Shown here piece by piece: positions 4,376 to 61,174 of a stretch of DNA of 64,000 nt. The position numbers and the translations under genes were made by a program. Source of the stretch: Adhaeribacter terrigena (GTDB taxonomy: Bacteria; Bacteroidota; Bacteroidia; Cytophagales; Hymenobacteraceae); contig NZ_JAEHFX010000001.1 in NCBI RefSeq assembly GCF_016623615.1, positions 930,001 to 994,000 of the forward strand, in the 5' to 3' direction. Within the stretch, counting starts at the first letter, position 1; each line of letters opens with the position of its first letter. The notes beneath the pieces were generated by a model that worked only from the letters and a program-made list of their open reading frames with translations, was not told the DNA's origin and ran no database searches.

Positions 4376-4380
4376 AGTCA

Positions 4381-4410
4381 AATTTGAAGATTTGGAAATT
4401 TGAAAATTTG
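4381..4410. repeat. Degenerate AAATTTG tandem repeat
   Basis: Four imperfect copies of a 7-8 bp unit (AAATTTGAAGATTTG and variants) lie just upstream of the acs start codon and run directly into a core repeat. The same unit appears at 5037-5068, 5187-5220, 10838-10862, 21800-21820 and 60058-60127. Confidence 0.7.
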
Positions 4411-4440
4411 AAACGGTAGGGAAAAGGCCTGAAAAAGTAA
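4410..4440. repeat. Dispersed core repeat, extended copy, reverse orientation
   Basis: GAAACGGTAGGGAAAA is followed by GGCCTGAAAAAGTAA, which is the reverse complement of the usual ACTTTTTCAGG flank. Confidence 0.75.
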
Positions 4441-5036: not shown

Positions 5037-5068
5037 CTGGAAATTTGAAGATTTGAAAATTTGGAGAT
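5037..5068. repeat. AAATTTG-type repeat, left arm
   Basis: GGAAATTTGAAGATTTG and relatives follow the VOC stop codon. The array is inverted relative to 5187-5220, so the two arms could pair around the terminator and the second hairpin between them. Confidence 0.65.
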
Positions 5069-18468: not shown

Positions 18469-18478
18469 GACTTTTGAC

Positions 18479-19231
18479 ATGCCAAACCCTACCGTTTTTA
18501 TTACCGGTGCCACTTCGGGCATTGGCCGTGCCACGGCGCTTTTACTCGGTAATGCAGGCTTCAGAATTATTGCTGCCGGCCGCCGGACCGAACGCCTGGA
18601 AGAACTGAAAACTTTGCTCCCGGCAGGGAATGTGCACACCCTGGAATTTGACGTGCGCGATAAAGCGGCCGTAAAAAACGCTATTGAAACGCTGCCGGAA
18701 ACCTGGAAAAACATTGACGTGCTGATCAACAATGCCGGTAACGCGCACGGACTTTCTGATATTCAGAATGGCAATGTGGACGATTGGGATCTGATGATCG
18801 ATATTAACGTGAAAGGTCTCTTGTACGTGAGCCGCGAAATTATTCCGGGTATGATTGCTAATGGCGGCGGTCGCATCATTAACATCGGTTCTATTGCGGG
18901 CAAGGAAGTTTACCCGAACGGGAACGTATATTGTGCCAGCAAATTTGCCGTAGATGCGCTTTCCAAAGCTATGCGGTTAGATCTGCTGAAAGAAGGTATT
19001 ATGGTGTCGGAAATTAACCCGGGCATGGTAGAAACCGAGTTTTCGGAAGTGCGCTTTAAAGGCGATAAGGAGAAAGCGGCGCAAACCTATAAAGGAATGG
19101 AACCGCTGCGCCCGGAAGATATTGCTGACGTGATCCATTTTACTTTAACCCGCCCGAAACACGTAAACCTGGCCGATATTCTAATTTTGCCGGCGGCACA
19201 GGCAAGCACCACGCTAAGCATCCGTAAATAA
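18479..19231 (+). CDS. Short-chain dehydrogenase/reductase (YdfG-like)
   Basis: A 250-residue classical SDR with a Rossmann fold. The cofactor motif is TGATSGIG (9-16), with NNAG at 84-87 and catalytic S138, Y151 and K155 (YCASK). Basic residues after beta-2 (GRRTERL) suggest NADP. It is closest in pattern to YdfG, which oxidises 3-hydroxy acids such as L-allo-threonine or serine. It starts 10 nt after porT, so it may share the transcript, and ends 2 nt before the cytochrome gene. Confidence 0.88.
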   Translation: MPNPTVFITGATSGIGRATALLLGNAGFRIIAAGRRTERLEELKTLLPAGNVHTLEFDVRDKAAVKNAIETLPETWKNIDVLINNAGNAHGLSDIQNGNVDDWDLMIDINVKGLLYVSREIIPGMIANGGGRIINIGSIAGKEVYPNGNVYCASKFAVDALSKAMRLDLLKEGIMVSEINPGMVETEFSEVRFKGDKEKAAQTYKGMEPLRPEDIADVIHFTLTRPKHVNLADILILPAAQASTTLSIRK

Positions 19232-21180: not shown

Positions 21181-21214
21181 TGTGCTGATGTGTTGATTGG
21201 CATAGTAGCAAAGT

Positions 21215-21286: not shown

Positions 21287-21316
21287 CAGTTTTTCGCCTC
21301 AAAACCCTACCGTTTA
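21287..21316. repeat. Dispersed core repeat, extended copy
   Basis: CAGTTTTTCGCCTC is followed by AAAACCCTACCGTTTA (21301-21316). Confidence 0.8.
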
Positions 21317-21346
21317 TAACCCTTTCCGGAAATTCCAGTTTAACTT

Positions 21347-21402
21347 AATCACTAATCACTAATCACTAATCACTAATCACTAATCACTAATCACTAATCA
21401 CT
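21347..21402. repeat. Eight perfect tandem copies of AATCACT
   Basis: A 7-bp unit repeated exactly eight times (56 bp), ending 5 nt before a GTG start codon. It is a likely site of slipped-strand length change in the leader or promoter of the VOC gene. Confidence 0.95.
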
Positions 21403-21407
21403 TTCCC

Positions 21408-21806
21408 GTGGAAATTCTGCAAATAAAAGAAACCTGTTTGTATGTGAAGGATCTGGATGCTACGCGGCAATTTTACGCCGGGAAGCTGGGGCTGGAAATT
21501 ATTGGCGAAGTGAAAAACCGCCACGTTTTCTTTCGGGCTGGAAAATCGGTTTTGCTTTGTTTCGATCCGGAAGCTTCTAAAAAAGGCGAAACCCTGCCGC
21601 CACATTACGGTACCGGAAATCTGCATCTCGCTTTTGAAGTTGCTCCCGACCGCTACGAAGACCAGAAAACCATTGTAAAGGCTTTGGGAATTGGCATTGA
21701 GCACGAACACGAATGGCCCAACGAACTCAAGTCATTTTACTTCCGCGACCCGGACAATCATCTACTGGAAATTGTAATGACGGGAATGTGGGAAAAGCAG
21801 ATTTGA
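21408..21806 (+). CDS. VOC family protein
   Basis: A 132-residue protein with two beta-alpha-beta-beta-beta modules (ETCLYVKDLDATRQFYAGKLGLEI, FYFRDPDNHLLEIVMTGMW). Candidate metal ligands are His in LHLAFEV and Glu in HLLEIV, as in glyoxalase and fosfomycin-resistance proteins. It starts at GTG 21408, five bases after the heptamer array, which makes the array part of its leader. Its TGA stop lies inside an AAATTTG-type repeat (CAGATTTGAAGATTTG). The substrate is not predictable. Confidence 0.82.
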   Translation: MEILQIKETCLYVKDLDATRQFYAGKLGLEIIGEVKNRHVFFRAGKSVLLCFDPEASKKGETLPPHYGTGNLHLAFEVAPDRYEDQKTIVKALGIGIEHEHEWPNELKSFYFRDPDNHLLEIVMTGMWEKQI

Positions 21807-29995: not shown

Positions 29996-32900
29996 TTATT
30001 GCACCACAATGCGGCCAGAGCCCAGCTTTGTGCCATTTAGATCCCGAAGCTGCAGCCAGTAAATGCCCGGTCCGTACTGACTTAAATTAAACCCGGTTTT
30101 GTCATAAGCTTCTTTTGTAGTGAATTCCTGATTTAATACCACCGAGCCTTTCGCATCGTAAACTGCCAGGGAGTAAACATGACCGGTACCGGTTTGGTTG
30201 TGGAACCGGACCTGAAAACGGCCTTTATTTGGGTTTGGGTAAATAAATACATTGCTCGTTGCAGAATCTGAAATGGCTAGTTTGTTCGACGTTCCGGTAC
30301 AGCCTTCGGAAGTAGCTATGGCCACTTCATACTCCCCGAGCTCGTCTACTGATACCGGTAGTGTTGCGGCAGTTTTTCCGGTTAAAACCATACCGTTTTT
30401 CTTCCAGGTATAGCTTAAAGTGCCGGCAGCCTGCGTAGTTGCCGATAGCGTAGTGGTCAGACCCGGGTACAGTTGCTTATAAGGCGCAGCCGTCAGGCGT
30501 ACTTCCGGATTTGGCATCGGGGTAATGGTAACAGGAGCCGAGGTGCTGACGCAGCCCGTAGCCTGGGTAATATTTACGGAATAATCTCCCGGTTGCTTTA
30601 CTTTAATAGCCTGGGTGGTTTCGCCGGTGCTCCAGTAATAAGAATTTCCGGCACTTGCGGTTAAGGTGGCTTCTCCGTCGTTGCAAATGGCGGTTTGAGT
30701 GGCATTGATCGTGGCCGGCGGCACCGGGTTGATGGTTAATGTAACCGGCGTTCGGGTTGGGCTTTCGCAGTTGCCGGAACTGCTGTAGGTGGCCGCATAA
30801 TAGGTAACCGTGCCAGGAGAATTCAAACTAGGATCGTTTACCACCGTGCCACCGGTTGGGGCATTATACCACACCACGCTGTAACCTGCCGGCACACTGG
30901 CCGTGGCTGTAAGTACCGGAGTCGGGTTGAAATCACATACCATGCGGTCGCCGGTGCTGATGGGCGGCGCTAAAGCCCCGGCTGAAACGGCCAGGTTCCG
31001 GATGGTTGTCTGGCAGGGCCCGCTTGTACCATATACGGCAATGTTGCCGGAAACAGATGTTGCCGGATAATTAACCACAATATTGTTTGTGCCCTGCCCG
31101 CTCACGATGGTAATGCCGGTCGGAACGCTCCAGGTATAAGTAGTAATGCCGGTGGTGGTTGGTACTGTGTAAGGAATATTCTGGCTGCCCTGGCACAGAC
31201 TGGTCGGGCCGGAAATAGCACCCAGCGAGAGCGAACCACCGGAAGAAATGCTGCGGGTTATAGCAAGTGTTCGTTCGCTTTGCGAGCCGGTTAAATTGTT
31301 TTTAGCAACCAGAGTAAACCACAGGCTGGCGCCTGGAGTAAGGCCGCTTGCTGCATAGGAAGTACCGGTAACGTTTGCAGCCAGGTTTACCCAGGTGCCG
31401 GTGGCAGCATCCAGTTTTAAAAGGTCGTAATGGGTAGCATTGGTAACGGCTGGCCAGCTGAAATTCAGGGAGCCGGCGCATAAACCCGGGTTGGCGCTTA
31501 AACTGGCCGGAGTTCCCAGAATTTTAAAAGTGACATCGCTTTGGTCGGTTAAGGTTCCGCTGGAGATTTTAATTAAAGCCGTGGCCGTATTTAAACCGGC
31601 CGGTATAGTCCAGGAATAACGGGTAGCCGTTGCCGATACCGCAGCTGAAATAGTGGTCCAGGTGGCGCCGTTGTTTATGGAATACTGAATGGTTTGATTT
31701 CCGGTAACGCCGGCATTATTCCATGTGATGGTTTCCTGCGCGCCCGGGCTTAAAGATTCGCCTCCGTTCGGGAAGATCACTTCAATATTCGGCTGGATGA
31801 TTTCCCAGGTCAGGGAGTATTGCTGGTTCGGACCGGTTGGCACAGCGGTTCCGTTCACGCGCAGGGTATACGTTCCGGCCGTTGGATTGTCGAGGGTTAC
31901 CTGTTCAATGTTGCTGATGTTGTCGAGGGCGCGGGTGGCATTGCTGGTAGGGCTTAGTTTATCCAGGATCCAGGGCAGGGTAGTGGTAGGGCCGTTTATA
32001 ACTTTCAAATCGAGATTGTTTACCAGGGCGGTGCTGGCATTGGCGGCTCCGGCCGGGTCGTTCCAGGTAAGCATTACTTTTAGTTTTACTGTGCCCGATG
32101 GCACCGTTATGCTTATATCGTTGGTGGCTCCGGTGGCAACGATGTTTACGGCGTAGCGGTTTTGTTCCAAGGCTTTTACGGCGGCCAAAGCATTGATTCT
32201 GCCGAAACCAAATTTATAATCCGGACCCGGATTGCCGAGGTCCTGCGCAGTATTGCAAACCACCGCTTTTATTAGTGAAGAAATGGGTAATGCGTTGGAA
32301 TTTAATTGTTTATAGCGTTCTACTAATAAAGCTACCGAACCCGATACGCCCGGCGTAGACATGGAAGTACCGGTAATGGTGCCGTAGGTGTTTAAGGGTG
32401 TATAAGTAGACAGAACGTTAGTTCCGAAAGCGCTGATCTCGGGTTTTACGCGGCCATCGTGCACCGGACCATAGCTGCTGCTGTTATTAATGGTTTCGGT
32501 GGTGGTAATGTTGGCGACCAGGATGTTGTTTTTGGCCGTTTTGCCGCTGCCTGTTATAGTAGACCAGCCGCCGCTGCAAGCCGATTGGGAATTTCCGGCT
32601 GAATGCACATGTAAATGCCACGGAAACGTATTCAGATTAACATCGGTGCTGCGGCTGGTAGTGGAATACGCTACGCCGGCTCCGGTTACGCCGCAGGTTT
32701 GGGTACTGCCGTAAGAATGGCTGCTGATATTCAGGTTCTGGGCAGGAATGGCCGCAAACATTTCCGATTGAATGTTGCCGTTGAAATTGTAGGAATATAG
32801 TTTAGCGTTGGGCGCCATGCCGCGGGCTTTGGGGTTGATGATGCCACGGCCGCCGATGGTGCCGGCTACGTGCGTGGAATGGCTTTCGGGCTGGTTGGTT

Positions 32901-42574: not shown

Positions 42575-42737
42575 GAATTGTTGAATGATGGAATTAGGGA
42601 ATGATTGAATGATAGAATGAAGGAATGGCAGAATTATTTAAATTTAACTTATTCTTCCAATCTTTCATTCTCTATTTTAATTCACTCATTCACTTATTTA
42701 AAATTCTCTCATTCTCTCATTCACTCAATCAGTCATT
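42575..42737. repeat. Inverted arms of GAATGATT-type repeats
   Basis: The left arm (42575-42628) has GAATGATTGAATGATAGAAT and relatives. The right arm (42655-42737) has CATTCTCTCATTCACTC and relatives in inverted orientation. The right arm contains the TAA stop of the aminotransferase gene. No clear core copy lies between them. Confidence 0.7.
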
Positions 42738-46973: not shown

Positions 46974-48008
46974 GTGTATAAAGAACTGTTACGTCCGCTG
47001 CTATTCCAGATAGACCCTGAAAAGGTTCATAATTATTCTTACACGGCTCTTCGGACCGCTTTTAGACTACCTTTTTCCGCTAAAATTGCCGAAAATCTAT
47101 ACTGCATAAATAACCCTAAACTGGAACGCGAAGTTTTTGGACTGAAGTTCCCGAACCCGGTTGGTCTGGCGGCAGGTTTCGATAAAAATGCTTTGCTGGT
47201 AGATGAATTTTCGCACCTGGGTTTTGGTTTTATCGAGATCGGAACCGTAACGCCCCGGCCACAGCCCGGCAACGATAAACCGCGTTTGTTTCGGCTGCCC
47301 GTAGATCAGGCCATTATAAACCGGATGGGTTTTAACAACCAGGGTGCCGAAACGGCTGCGCACCGGCTGAAATACCGCAAAAGCAATATCATTATTGGCG
47401 GCAACATTGGCAAAAATAAAGATACGCCGAACGAACACGCGCTGCGCGATTACGAGAAATGCTTCGATGCGCTTTATGATGTGGTAGATTATTTTGTGGT
47501 AAACGTGAGCTCGCCGAATACGCCCGGCCTGCGCGAGCTGCAGGATAAAGAGCCGCTGATGGAATTGCTGGCGGCGGTGCAACGGAAAAATAACGCTAAA
47601 GCCAAGCCGAAACCACTGCTGCTCAAAATTGCCCCGGATCTGACCGACAGCCAGCTGGACGACATTGTGGAAATTGCCAGAGAAACCAAACTGGCCGGCA
47701 TTATTGCCACCAACACTACAATCAGCCGCGAAAACCTAGAAACCCATTTAAGCGATATTCAGGAAATAGGAGCAGGCGGCCTTAGCGGGAAACCGTTAAA
47801 AGAACGCGCTACCGAAGTAATAAAATACCTGCGGAGTAAACTGTCGGAAAACGTGCGCATTATTGGCGTAGGCGGTATCATAACGGCCGACGATGCGATC
47901 GAAAAATTAAATGCCGGCGCCGACCTGATTCAGCTTTATACCGGTTTCGTGTACGAAGGCCCGGCGCTGGTAAAAGCCATAAACGAGAAAATTTTAGCTA
48001 GTGATTAG
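46974..48008 (+). CDS. pyrD: Dihydroorotate dehydrogenase, quinone-dependent (class 2)
   Basis: A 344-residue flavoenzyme of pyrimidine synthesis, membrane-associated and menaquinone-linked. The N-terminal [18 protein letters not shown] helices are the class 2 mark. Catalytic Ser is in [12 protein letters not shown], the FMN site in [11 protein letters not shown] and the substrate loop in NTTISRENL. The start is GTG (46974). The last residues (Ala-Ser-Asp-stop) are read from an AGTGATT repeat arm. Confidence 0.95.
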
Positions 48009-48236
48009 TGAATAGTGATTAATGATTAGTTTTCGGATTTTCAGGTTTAAAACGGTAGGGTTTCAGGCGTAAAAAGTCAGCCTTGCGAAGATCGTTTCCT
48101 TAAAAGTAGTCTATCATAGTTTTCAGCATACCAGCCAGGGAAACTACTTTTTCCGATCATCACCGTTTCTCATTCAATTAATTATTATTCACGAATTATT
48201 ATTCATTAATCCTTATCCATTAATCATTAATTTTGG
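47999..48236. repeat. Core repeat framed by inverted AGTGATT/AATCATT arms
   Basis: The left arm AGTGATTAGTGAATAGTGAT begins inside the pyrD stop region (47999-48029). The right arm (about 48180-48236, ATTAATC units) ends 16 nt before ftsK. The extended core (AAAACGGTAGGGTTTC at 48049, then AGGCGTAAAAAGTC) lies near the left arm. The heptamer is the reverse complement of the unit at 21347. Confidence 0.75.
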
Positions 48237-58684: not shown

Positions 58685-58829
58685 GAGTTAAATTGTTGAA
58701 TGGCTTAATGGTTAAATGGCTTTATAGTTTTTGAAGGCGAAAGCATACCGTTTTCCGAATTAACAATCAGCTATTTAACAATTTAGCAATTTAACCATTC
58801 AACCATTAAACCATTTAACAATTCAATTT
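58682..58829. repeat. Core repeat framed by long inverted arms
   Basis: The left arm (58685-58722) starts right after the ligase stop and uses TTTAATGG-type units. The core is GAAAGCATACCGTTTT (58739-58754) with an AGTTTTTGAAGGC flank. The right arm (58757-58829) is the inverted array. Part of it (58803-58827) is exactly complementary to the arm at 44497-44521. Confidence 0.85.
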
Positions 58830-60057: not shown

Positions 60058-60127
60058 TCATTTTCAAATTTTCAAATCTTCAAATTTCCAAATCTTCAAA
60101 TCCCAAATTTTCAAATTTCTAAATTTC
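60058..60127. repeat. AAATTTG-type array, unpaired
   Basis: About nine degenerate copies of TTCAAATCTTC/TTTCAAATTT run to within 40 nt of the nucleoside phosphorylase start. No opposite arm is found in the same gap, so this looks like a right arm without its partner. Confidence 0.75.
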
Positions 60128-60164: not shown

Positions 60165-61034
60165 ATGGCCATGCAAGCAATTCCCGAATCTGAACTGATC
60201 TTAAATCCGGACGGAAGCGTTTATCATTTGAATTTATTGCCCGAACATATTTCTGGTACCATTATCACCGTCGGCGATCCGGAGCGGGTGGCCAAAGTGA
60301 GCAAATATTTCGATTCTATTGAGGTGGAAGTTGCGAAGCGGGAATTTATTACGCACACCGGCTATTACAAAGGCAAGCGCATAACCGTAATTTCTACCGG
60401 CATGGGCACCGATAACATCGATATCCTGATGAATGAGCTGGATGCGCTGGTCAATATCGATCTGCTGACCCGCCTTCCCGTAGCCGAAGAAGACCGCATT
60501 TCGCTGAATATTATTCGCATTGGTACTTCCGGCGCCTTGCAAACTACGGTGCCGTTGGGCGGCCACCTGGCTTCAGTTTATGGAATAGGTTTGGATAGTT
60601 TAATGGAATTTTACCCGCTGCAGCAAACCGCTTTCGAAAACGCTATCTCCCAGGGCCTGAAAACTGCTTTGAATCTGCCGTATGCGCCGTATTGTGTACA
60701 AGGTTCCGAAAAGCTGCGCCAGAAAATTGCCTTCGATATGATTCCGGGCAATACGCTTACCTGCCCGGGATTTTATGCGCCGCAGGGCCGGGTGTTGCGG
60801 GTGCCGCTTAAAAATGCGAACCTGATCCAGGATTACCATAATTTTGCGCACGAAGATTTTAAACTCACCAATTTCGAAATGGAAACGGCCGGTTATTACG
60901 CGTTGGGAAGATTATTAGGTCATGAAATGCTGTCGCTGAACGCGATCGTGGCCGACCGGATCAATCACCGCTTCGCCGAAAATGCCGACGAAACGATAAA
61001 TGATCTTATTCTGAAAGTGCTGGATCGGGTTTAA
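60165..61034 (+). CDS. Nucleoside phosphorylase (uridine phosphorylase-like)
   Basis: A 289-residue PNP/UDP-family enzyme that cleaves nucleosides with phosphate. The phosphate-site motif is ITVGDPERVAKVS, the nucleoside motifs are IRIGTSGAL and the late NFEMETAGYYALGRLLGH, where the Glu binds ribose 2'-OH. It is longer than typical UDP (about 253) and lacks the exact uridine signature, so the base specificity is open. It begins ATGGCCATG and the second Met is also possible. The stop codon starts a repeat arm. Confidence 0.87.
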   Translation: MAMQAIPESELILNPDGSVYHLNLLPEHISGTIITVGDPERVAKVSKYFDSIEVEVAKREFITHTGYYKGKRITVISTGMGTDNIDILMNELDALVNIDLLTRLPVAEEDRISLNIIRIGTSGALQTTVPLGGHLASVYGIGLDSLMEFYPLQQTAFENAISQGLKTALNLPYAPYCVQGSEKLRQKIAFDMIPGNTLTCPGFYAPQGRVLRVPLKNANLIQDYHNFAHEDFKLTNFEMETAGYYALGRLLGHEMLSLNAIVADRINHRFAENADETINDLILKVLDRV

Positions 61035-61174
61035 TTTTAATGGCTTAATTGTTTAATTGTTTAATGGTTAAGTGGGCTGTAGATAATCCGGGAAACGGTA
61101 TGCTTTCGCCTTTAAAAACTATAAAACAATTTAGCCATTCAACAATTAAACCATTCAGCCATAAAACAATTTAG
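61032..61174. repeat. Core repeat framed by inverted arms, stop codon to stop codon
   Basis: The left arm (61038-61079) begins at the phosphorylase TAA. The core GAAACGGTATGCTTTC is at 61092-61107 with a GCCTTTAAAAACT flank. The right arm (61121-61174) contains the stop codon of the convergent gene. The extended core is nearly the exact complement of the copy at 58727-58754. Confidence 0.85.

Follow-up and report, generated by a model that had tools for sequence, protein, structure and literature searches.

The DNA analysed here, referred to as the window, is a stretch of 64,000 nt from the genome of Adhaeribacter terrigena (G000; 4.43 Mb, 24 contigs). In this window, a gene for a 132-residue protein of the VOC/glyoxalase superfamily follows a multihaem cytochrome/TPR gene, and eight exact AATCACT units lie directly in front of its GTG start codon (Table 1). 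The array was reported by TRF at 21346-21402, with a period of 7, 8.1 copies, 100% matches and a score of 114, and essentially no comparable match was found in 100 dinucleotide shuffles. A preliminary description had called it the only exact tandem array in the window, which holds for TRF arrays of at least three units with 100% matches. The distance of 5 nt to the GTG codon was also given correctly; the end had been placed at 21408, which adds the five spacer bases and the G of GTG. GTG is a credible start: the ortholog in the congener Adhaeribacter soli MA2 (G001; 84% amino acid identity) also begins with GTG at this position, where more distant orthologs have ATG.

The array was expected to lie where the leader or promoter of the VOC gene should be. 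It does occupy the leader, and inspection by eye revealed no clear Bacteroidota-type promoter upstream of the gene. An Rfam scan of the window gave no matches. The same intergenic region contains a perfect inverted repeat and a copy of a dispersed motif, both of which could have effects of their own beside the array. The 29-bp inverted repeat contains internal GTAGCG repeats and is absent from the orthologous intergenic region of A. soli.

Table 1. Features of the window. Positions are counted from the first nucleotide of the 64,000; a dot marks features without strand.
Feature	Position	Strand	Remarks
(AATCACT)x8 array	21347..21402	+	mRNA-side strand without G; right arm of the cytochrome-VOC intergenic region, expanded
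Spacer TTCCC	21403..21407	+	between array and start codon; from the sequence
VOC/glyoxalase-superfamily gene, 132 aa, GTG start	21408..21806	+	PF00903, E=9.5e-11; conserved start codon position
Left edge of cytochrome-VOC intergenic region, TGTGCTGATGTGTTGATTGG...	21181..21209	+	degraded left arm, no longer matching the array
Perfect 29-bp inverted repeat, 12-nt loop	21214..21283	+	repeat search; downstream of multihaem cytochrome/TPR gene
Dispersed ~30-bp motif, one copy	21288..21316	+	AsTTTTT-N7-AAAnnmTAsCGTTTT; absent at the A. soli VOC site
Short AGATTTGA octamer array over VOC stop codon	21799..21815	+	TRF; another edge element, outward orientation
Four-unit element, reverse complement of ACTAATCATTAATCACTATTCACTAATCACTA	47999..48030	-	left arm; includes the dihydroorotate dehydrogenase stop codon
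Array of ATTCATTAATCATT class	48172..48229	+	near right edge of the intergenic region whose left arm is 47999-48030
Framed intergenic region	58691..58823	.	TTAATGG-type left arm 58691-58722; CCATTCAA-type right arm 58760-58823; dispersed motif between
Framed intergenic region	61028..61171	.	GGTTTAAT-type left arm; AACAATT-type right arm
Framed intergenic region	42581..42721	.	GAATGA-type left array; TCATTC-type right array
Dispersed ~30-bp motif, examples	21288-21316, 18469-18499, 30370-30400, 48050-48083		

Array statistics for A. terrigena were obtained from 704 kb of sampled stretches, with genes predicted by a simple home-made caller. Intergenic arrays had periods of mostly 7, 8, 14 and 16; arrays inside coding sequences (CDS) favoured 12, 18 and 15. 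Among 58 intergenic arrays of the period-7/8 type, 44 were located at most 25 bp from a CDS edge, and arrays passing the TRF threshold were present at 44 of 870 edges, giving a base rate of 5%. The edge arrays followed a strict strand rule. Read outward from the CDS, G exceeded C in 43/44 arrays, with one tie and none in the opposite orientation (all 21 stop-edge arrays and 22 of 23 start-edge arrays). Miscalled starts weaken such a rule rather than create it. The same outward G-rich orientation was observed for edge arrays of A. soli (16/18, none opposite) and of genome G002 (4/4). Arrays of the AATCACT class within 25 bp of an edge kept the rule in 36/36 cases in A. soli, 9/9 in A. terrigena and 5/5 in G056, the genome of a member of another Cytophagales family. 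Octamers of the ATTTGAAG type in Adhaeribacter (window 4380-4413, 5043-5068 and 60060-60126) also obeyed the rule, and so did (GAGTGAAT)n in G002, where it borders one region on both sides (L063/L117).

Plain base composition was rejected as a general explanation of the rule. In the first 20 nt, sense-strand skew was such that start edges were G-poor overall (0.32) and stop edges nearly neutral (0.06); because stop edges are almost neutral, the strict orientation of their arrays is not a matter of composition alone. Three-frame stop codons were rejected as the purpose of the arrays. On the sense strand a modest excess was observed, 0.53 against 0.37 in shuffled arrays at stop edges and 0.23 against 0.09 at start edges. 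The backward-read pattern provides no usable control for AATCACT, as AATCACT arrays are mirror-symmetric.

Elsewhere in A. terrigena, at least three exact AATCACT units were found at C11:761209 and at two contig ends, with contig C17 closing and contig C18 opening on such an array. Among 59 related genomes, an exact AATCACT triple was confined to A. terrigena, A. soli and G056. In G056, arrays of up to 21 copies lie at CDS edges and share the orientation seen in Adhaeribacter. The long arrays are located at G056:C1 (L127-L132), and TAACTGA arrays are present in this genome as well. In A. soli, exactly four units were observed in 34 of 43 copies of the AATCACT class, and 34 of the 43 are no more than 10 bp away from a CDS edge. 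The reverse-complement version previously noticed at 47999 is real and consists of four units with substitutions. Its suggested common origin with the focal array stands at the level of the family: the 32-mer ACTAATCATTAATCACTATTCACTAATCACTA is identical at two A. terrigena loci, the window copy and one other, and at four A. soli loci, all of them unrelated. A second 32-mer, ACTAATCACTAATCATTATTCACTAATCACTA, occurs at 15 places in A. soli, and eight of these form four inverted pairs 105-227 bp apart.

Arms were present at both edges of the intergenic region, as inverted terminal copies, at 13 of 20 A. soli loci picked solely by their match to the AATCACT heptamer class. In A. terrigena, left and right arms of one region matched as inverted repeats above swapped arms with z = 7, a signal owed in part to copies of the dispersed motif; matching in direct orientation showed no excess over swapped arms. 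Framed regions occur between tandem, convergent and divergent gene pairs, and at many edges only one arm is present or the classes do not match (L150, L154, L158, L160). The interiors between A. soli arms were mostly unrelated and the copies shared no conserved interior, residual matches being arm overlaps or another, REP-like repeat. This separate dispersed repeat, with CATCCTGAGC or similar, was seen in the interiors of L149, L153, L155 and L156.

The window is collinear, in inverted order, with A. soli C9:100-200 kb, and orthologous slots can therefore be compared. The flank AACCCTTTCC..AAATTyCAGTTTA is common to both species at the VOC locus. The slot itself holds about four degenerate units in A. 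soli (AATCATT, ATTCATT, AACCATT and AATCATT) against eight AATCACT in A. terrigena. Copy number at this slot thus does change, but between species. The frame is intact in A. soli, with an arm alignment score of 21, and broken in A. terrigena, with a score of 6; the A. terrigena intergenic region now contains the 29-bp hairpin and a copy of the dispersed motif. A second slot is found at the end of C17 and the start of C18, which consist of 11 and 10 perfect units, respectively. The flanking genes, which we take from inspection of the sequence by eye to be those of a DinB-type protein and a KUP transporter, are neighbours in A. soli (C8) with (AATCACT)8 between them. For this reason the A. terrigena assembly break lies most likely inside one long AATCACT-family array, and C17 and C18 are probably neighbours, in line with A. 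soli C8. Copy number at the DinB-KUP slot is 11 or more in A. terrigena and 8 in A. soli.

Arrays were kept at the orthologous slots VOC, DinB-KUP, L149/L056, L152/L043, L159/L089, L161/L042, L163/L056 and L164/L058. Beyond VOC, the array was found in the same place, usually with another unit, as compared to the 5% base rate of decorated edges. Clear co-change of both arms was observed in only two or three intergenic regions. At L159/L089, both arms are of the ATTAGTG type in A. soli and of the ATTGTTA type in A. terrigena; arm alignment scores were 23 and 20 within species versus 8 and 11 across, and duplexes were predicted at -36 and -31 versus -14 and -11 kcal/mol. At L164/L058, the scores were 24 and 21 within species versus 15 and 13 across, and the A/T-only arms of A. 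terrigena pair weakly (predicted -10.8 kcal/mol). Co-change was weaker at L163/L056 (25 and 12 within species versus 9 and 15 across), where the value of 12 belongs to A. terrigena. At L149/L056, only one of the two A. terrigena edges bears a clear array, and the within-genome score is 7. Some arm pairs therefore stay complementary while their sequence changes.

The ~30-bp motif, one copy of which lies 30 bp upstream of the focal array, was found to be a separate element. Its strict pattern had 1,590 matches in A. terrigena, 96 in A. soli and almost none in 57 other relatives, and the window contained 79 PWM hits versus 1-4 in simulated sequence. At a score of at least 18, the density in sampled sequence was 3.5 per kb intergenic versus 0.26 per kb CDS, a 13-fold difference, and no hit was observed in simulated sequence. 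The motif is richest between convergent genes, often as inverted pairs; copies on opposite strands frequently have one palindromic centre in common, with one offset in 48 pairs and a second in 11. Array and motif as a single fixed element was rejected: the motif occurs at many array-free sites and at variable spacing, and is missing at the A. soli VOC slot. A RAYT-driven REP origin of the motif in A. terrigena was rejected as well, as the genome is without a Y1_Tnp gene. The motif is reminiscent of DNA uptake sequences or of a site for a nucleoid protein, which may serve as a lead; the likeness to uptake sequences is due to A/T tracts about one helical turn apart, high copy number and inverted pairs.

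The focal array is one overgrown member of a family of edge repeats, and nothing was found that marks it as an on/off switch. Most probably, it is a slippage-expanded copy of an edge-marking family of heptamer arms, with a weak effect on VOC expression and no role as a dedicated switch. A short heptamer element, usually of 3-4 units, marks CDS edges across the A. terrigena genome, and the focal copy would have been expanded by replication slippage, for which the long perfect arrays of the DinB-KUP slot also speak. The arms show their G-rich, C-poor strand outward from the CDS edge, and two arms frame a region as an inverted repeat. Arms may spread and stay complementary by copying between similar arrays, possibly through slippage together with hairpin-mediated template switching or gene conversion. 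Translation may limit the tolerated orientation, because the start edge would tolerate only a G-poor, unstructured leader.

In front of the VOC gene, the array would provide an open, G-free last 56 nt of the leader. The predicted opening energy of the start region was 9.2, 8.9 and 8.7 kcal/mol for 4, 8 and 21 units, respectively, and 13.6 kcal/mol with random 56-mers. Since the prediction is flat between 4 and 21 units, a weak dependence of the VOC gene on copy number is expected. An open leader fits the translation of Bacteroidetes, which is reported to be tuned by mRNA structure and not by Shine-Dalgarno pairing (PMC6847099). Several points speak against the edge-arm explanation. The left arm is lost at the VOC locus, where the frame is not intact; arm co-change is weak in some orthologous pairs, such as L163/L056, where the A. 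terrigena pair scores lower than the cross pair (12 versus 15); and we infer the copying mechanism rather than observe it.

A broader proposal is put forward more tentatively. Many intergenic regions of Adhaeribacter, and perhaps more widely of Cytophagales, may be framed by outward repeat arms at CDS edges, in slots that persist between species while the units change jointly in both arms. This might be an undescribed architecture, kept by arm-to-arm copying or by selection for pairing. No description of frames with co-changing arms was found in the literature searched; subscription journals lay outside its scope and this is weak evidence of novelty. If true in more genomes, arm co-change would provide a natural example of covariation in intergenic DNA that turns over quickly. 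It would also make it possible to test whether selection (for insulation or mRNA ends) or a mutational process (hairpin template switching) upholds the frames.

Selection for an intergenic stem is a somewhat unlikely explanation of the arms as a whole. A hairpin of the two arms, in read-through RNA or in DNA, would insulate neighbouring genes, by hiding the downstream start in read-through transcripts or by stabilising 3' ends, and selection would keep the arms complementary. The arms keep matching while both change, they abut start and stop codons, and the arm duplexes of A. soli were predicted at about -26 to -40 kcal/mol, all of which agrees with such a stem. However, framed regions are found in tandem, convergent and divergent gene pairs alike, single arms and unmatched classes are frequent, and the focal array has no partner.

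It is unlikely that an S1-like, cold-shock or Csr-like RNA-binding protein recognises the leader repeats and thereby controls the translation of a set of genes. The same idea has been proposed for (TAACTGA)n (PMC4679880), and it would suit arrays that abut start codons in a phylum described as lacking Shine-Dalgarno leaders (PMC6847099). On the other hand, stop-edge copies are equally frequent and place the complementary strand in the mRNA, and the unit differs between sister species at the same slot, which a sequence-specific binder would not easily tolerate.

It is quite unlikely that the intergenic region is taken up by a small mobile element, or by an invertible DNA segment, with the arms as its terminal inverted repeats. 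The identical A. soli 32-mers, four times arranged as inverted pairs, point in this direction. The mostly unrelated interiors argue against it, and the interior motif of the DinB-KUP slot has the same orientation in both species. With arms at most 10 nt from CDS edges, each event would require the replacement of an entire intergenic region.

The preliminary description had considered phase variation, in which slippage within a population changes the copy number and turns VOC expression up or down; although a perfect eight-unit array is prone to slippage and the length at the slot differs from that of A. soli, such a contingency locus is very unlikely, because the equal use of stop edges, the metabolic nature of the gene (a glyoxalase-fold protein, PF00903, and not one of the host/environment interface such as surface or restriction-modification genes) and the flat predicted start accessibility argue against a switch, and no promoter could be placed around the array. 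Position in front of a gene is by itself no signal of expression control, as equally many arrays directly follow stop codons (21, compared to 23 at start codons). A lone perfect array before a gene need not be a phase switch, and the present one should not be read as such, since it belongs to a genome-wide set with a positional and a strand rule at both gene ends.

Among known systems, hmw1A/hmw2A of Haemophilus influenzae likewise have a 7-bp tandem array upstream of one gene. The hmw1A repeats are reported to be linked to phase variation of a surface adhesin (PMC8262952, PMC2424069), whereas the VOC gene is a metabolic gene within a genome-wide array family. REP/BIME sequences with RAYT transposases are also dispersed intergenic inverted repeats. 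The Adhaeribacter arms differ in being tandem heptamers that abut CDS edges, and a profile search for Y1_Tnp (PF01797) gave no matches in the A. terrigena genome and seven genes in A. soli. Cyanobacterial STRR (short tandemly repeated repetitive) heptamers form dispersed arrays in variable but structured intergenic regions. They resemble the Adhaeribacter arrays as dispersed heptamer arrays, although with different units, and to our knowledge a strict CDS-edge location with outward orientation has not been described for them.

The closest known system consists of (TAACTGA)n direct repeats between the genes of Beggiatoaceae, cyanobacteria and a few Bacteroidetes (MacGregor 2015, PMC4679880). 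These intergenic heptamers mostly abut start codons and contain stop codons in all three forward frames, and one Bacteroidetes set is reversed, directly after the stop codon. Related strains differ in copy number by 7-nt steps, and assemblies break at long arrays (PMC4679880). The heptamer unit, the intergenic and start-abutting location, the all-frame stops, the copy change in 7-nt steps and the assembly breaks are all common to the Adhaeribacter arrays. (TAACTGA)3 had no match in A. terrigena and A. soli, and was present in G051, G052 and G056. A location directly upstream of start codons is seen in Adhaeribacter as well, 5 nt before the VOC GTG and in 23 start-edge arrays in 704 kb. However, the Adhaeribacter arrays are not mostly directed forward towards the start codon; stop edges (21) are used as commonly as start edges, in complementary orientation. 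Further differences from (TAACTGA)n are that many 7- and 8-bp unit classes obey one edge and orientation rule in Adhaeribacter, and that intergenic regions are framed by matching arms whose units can change jointly.
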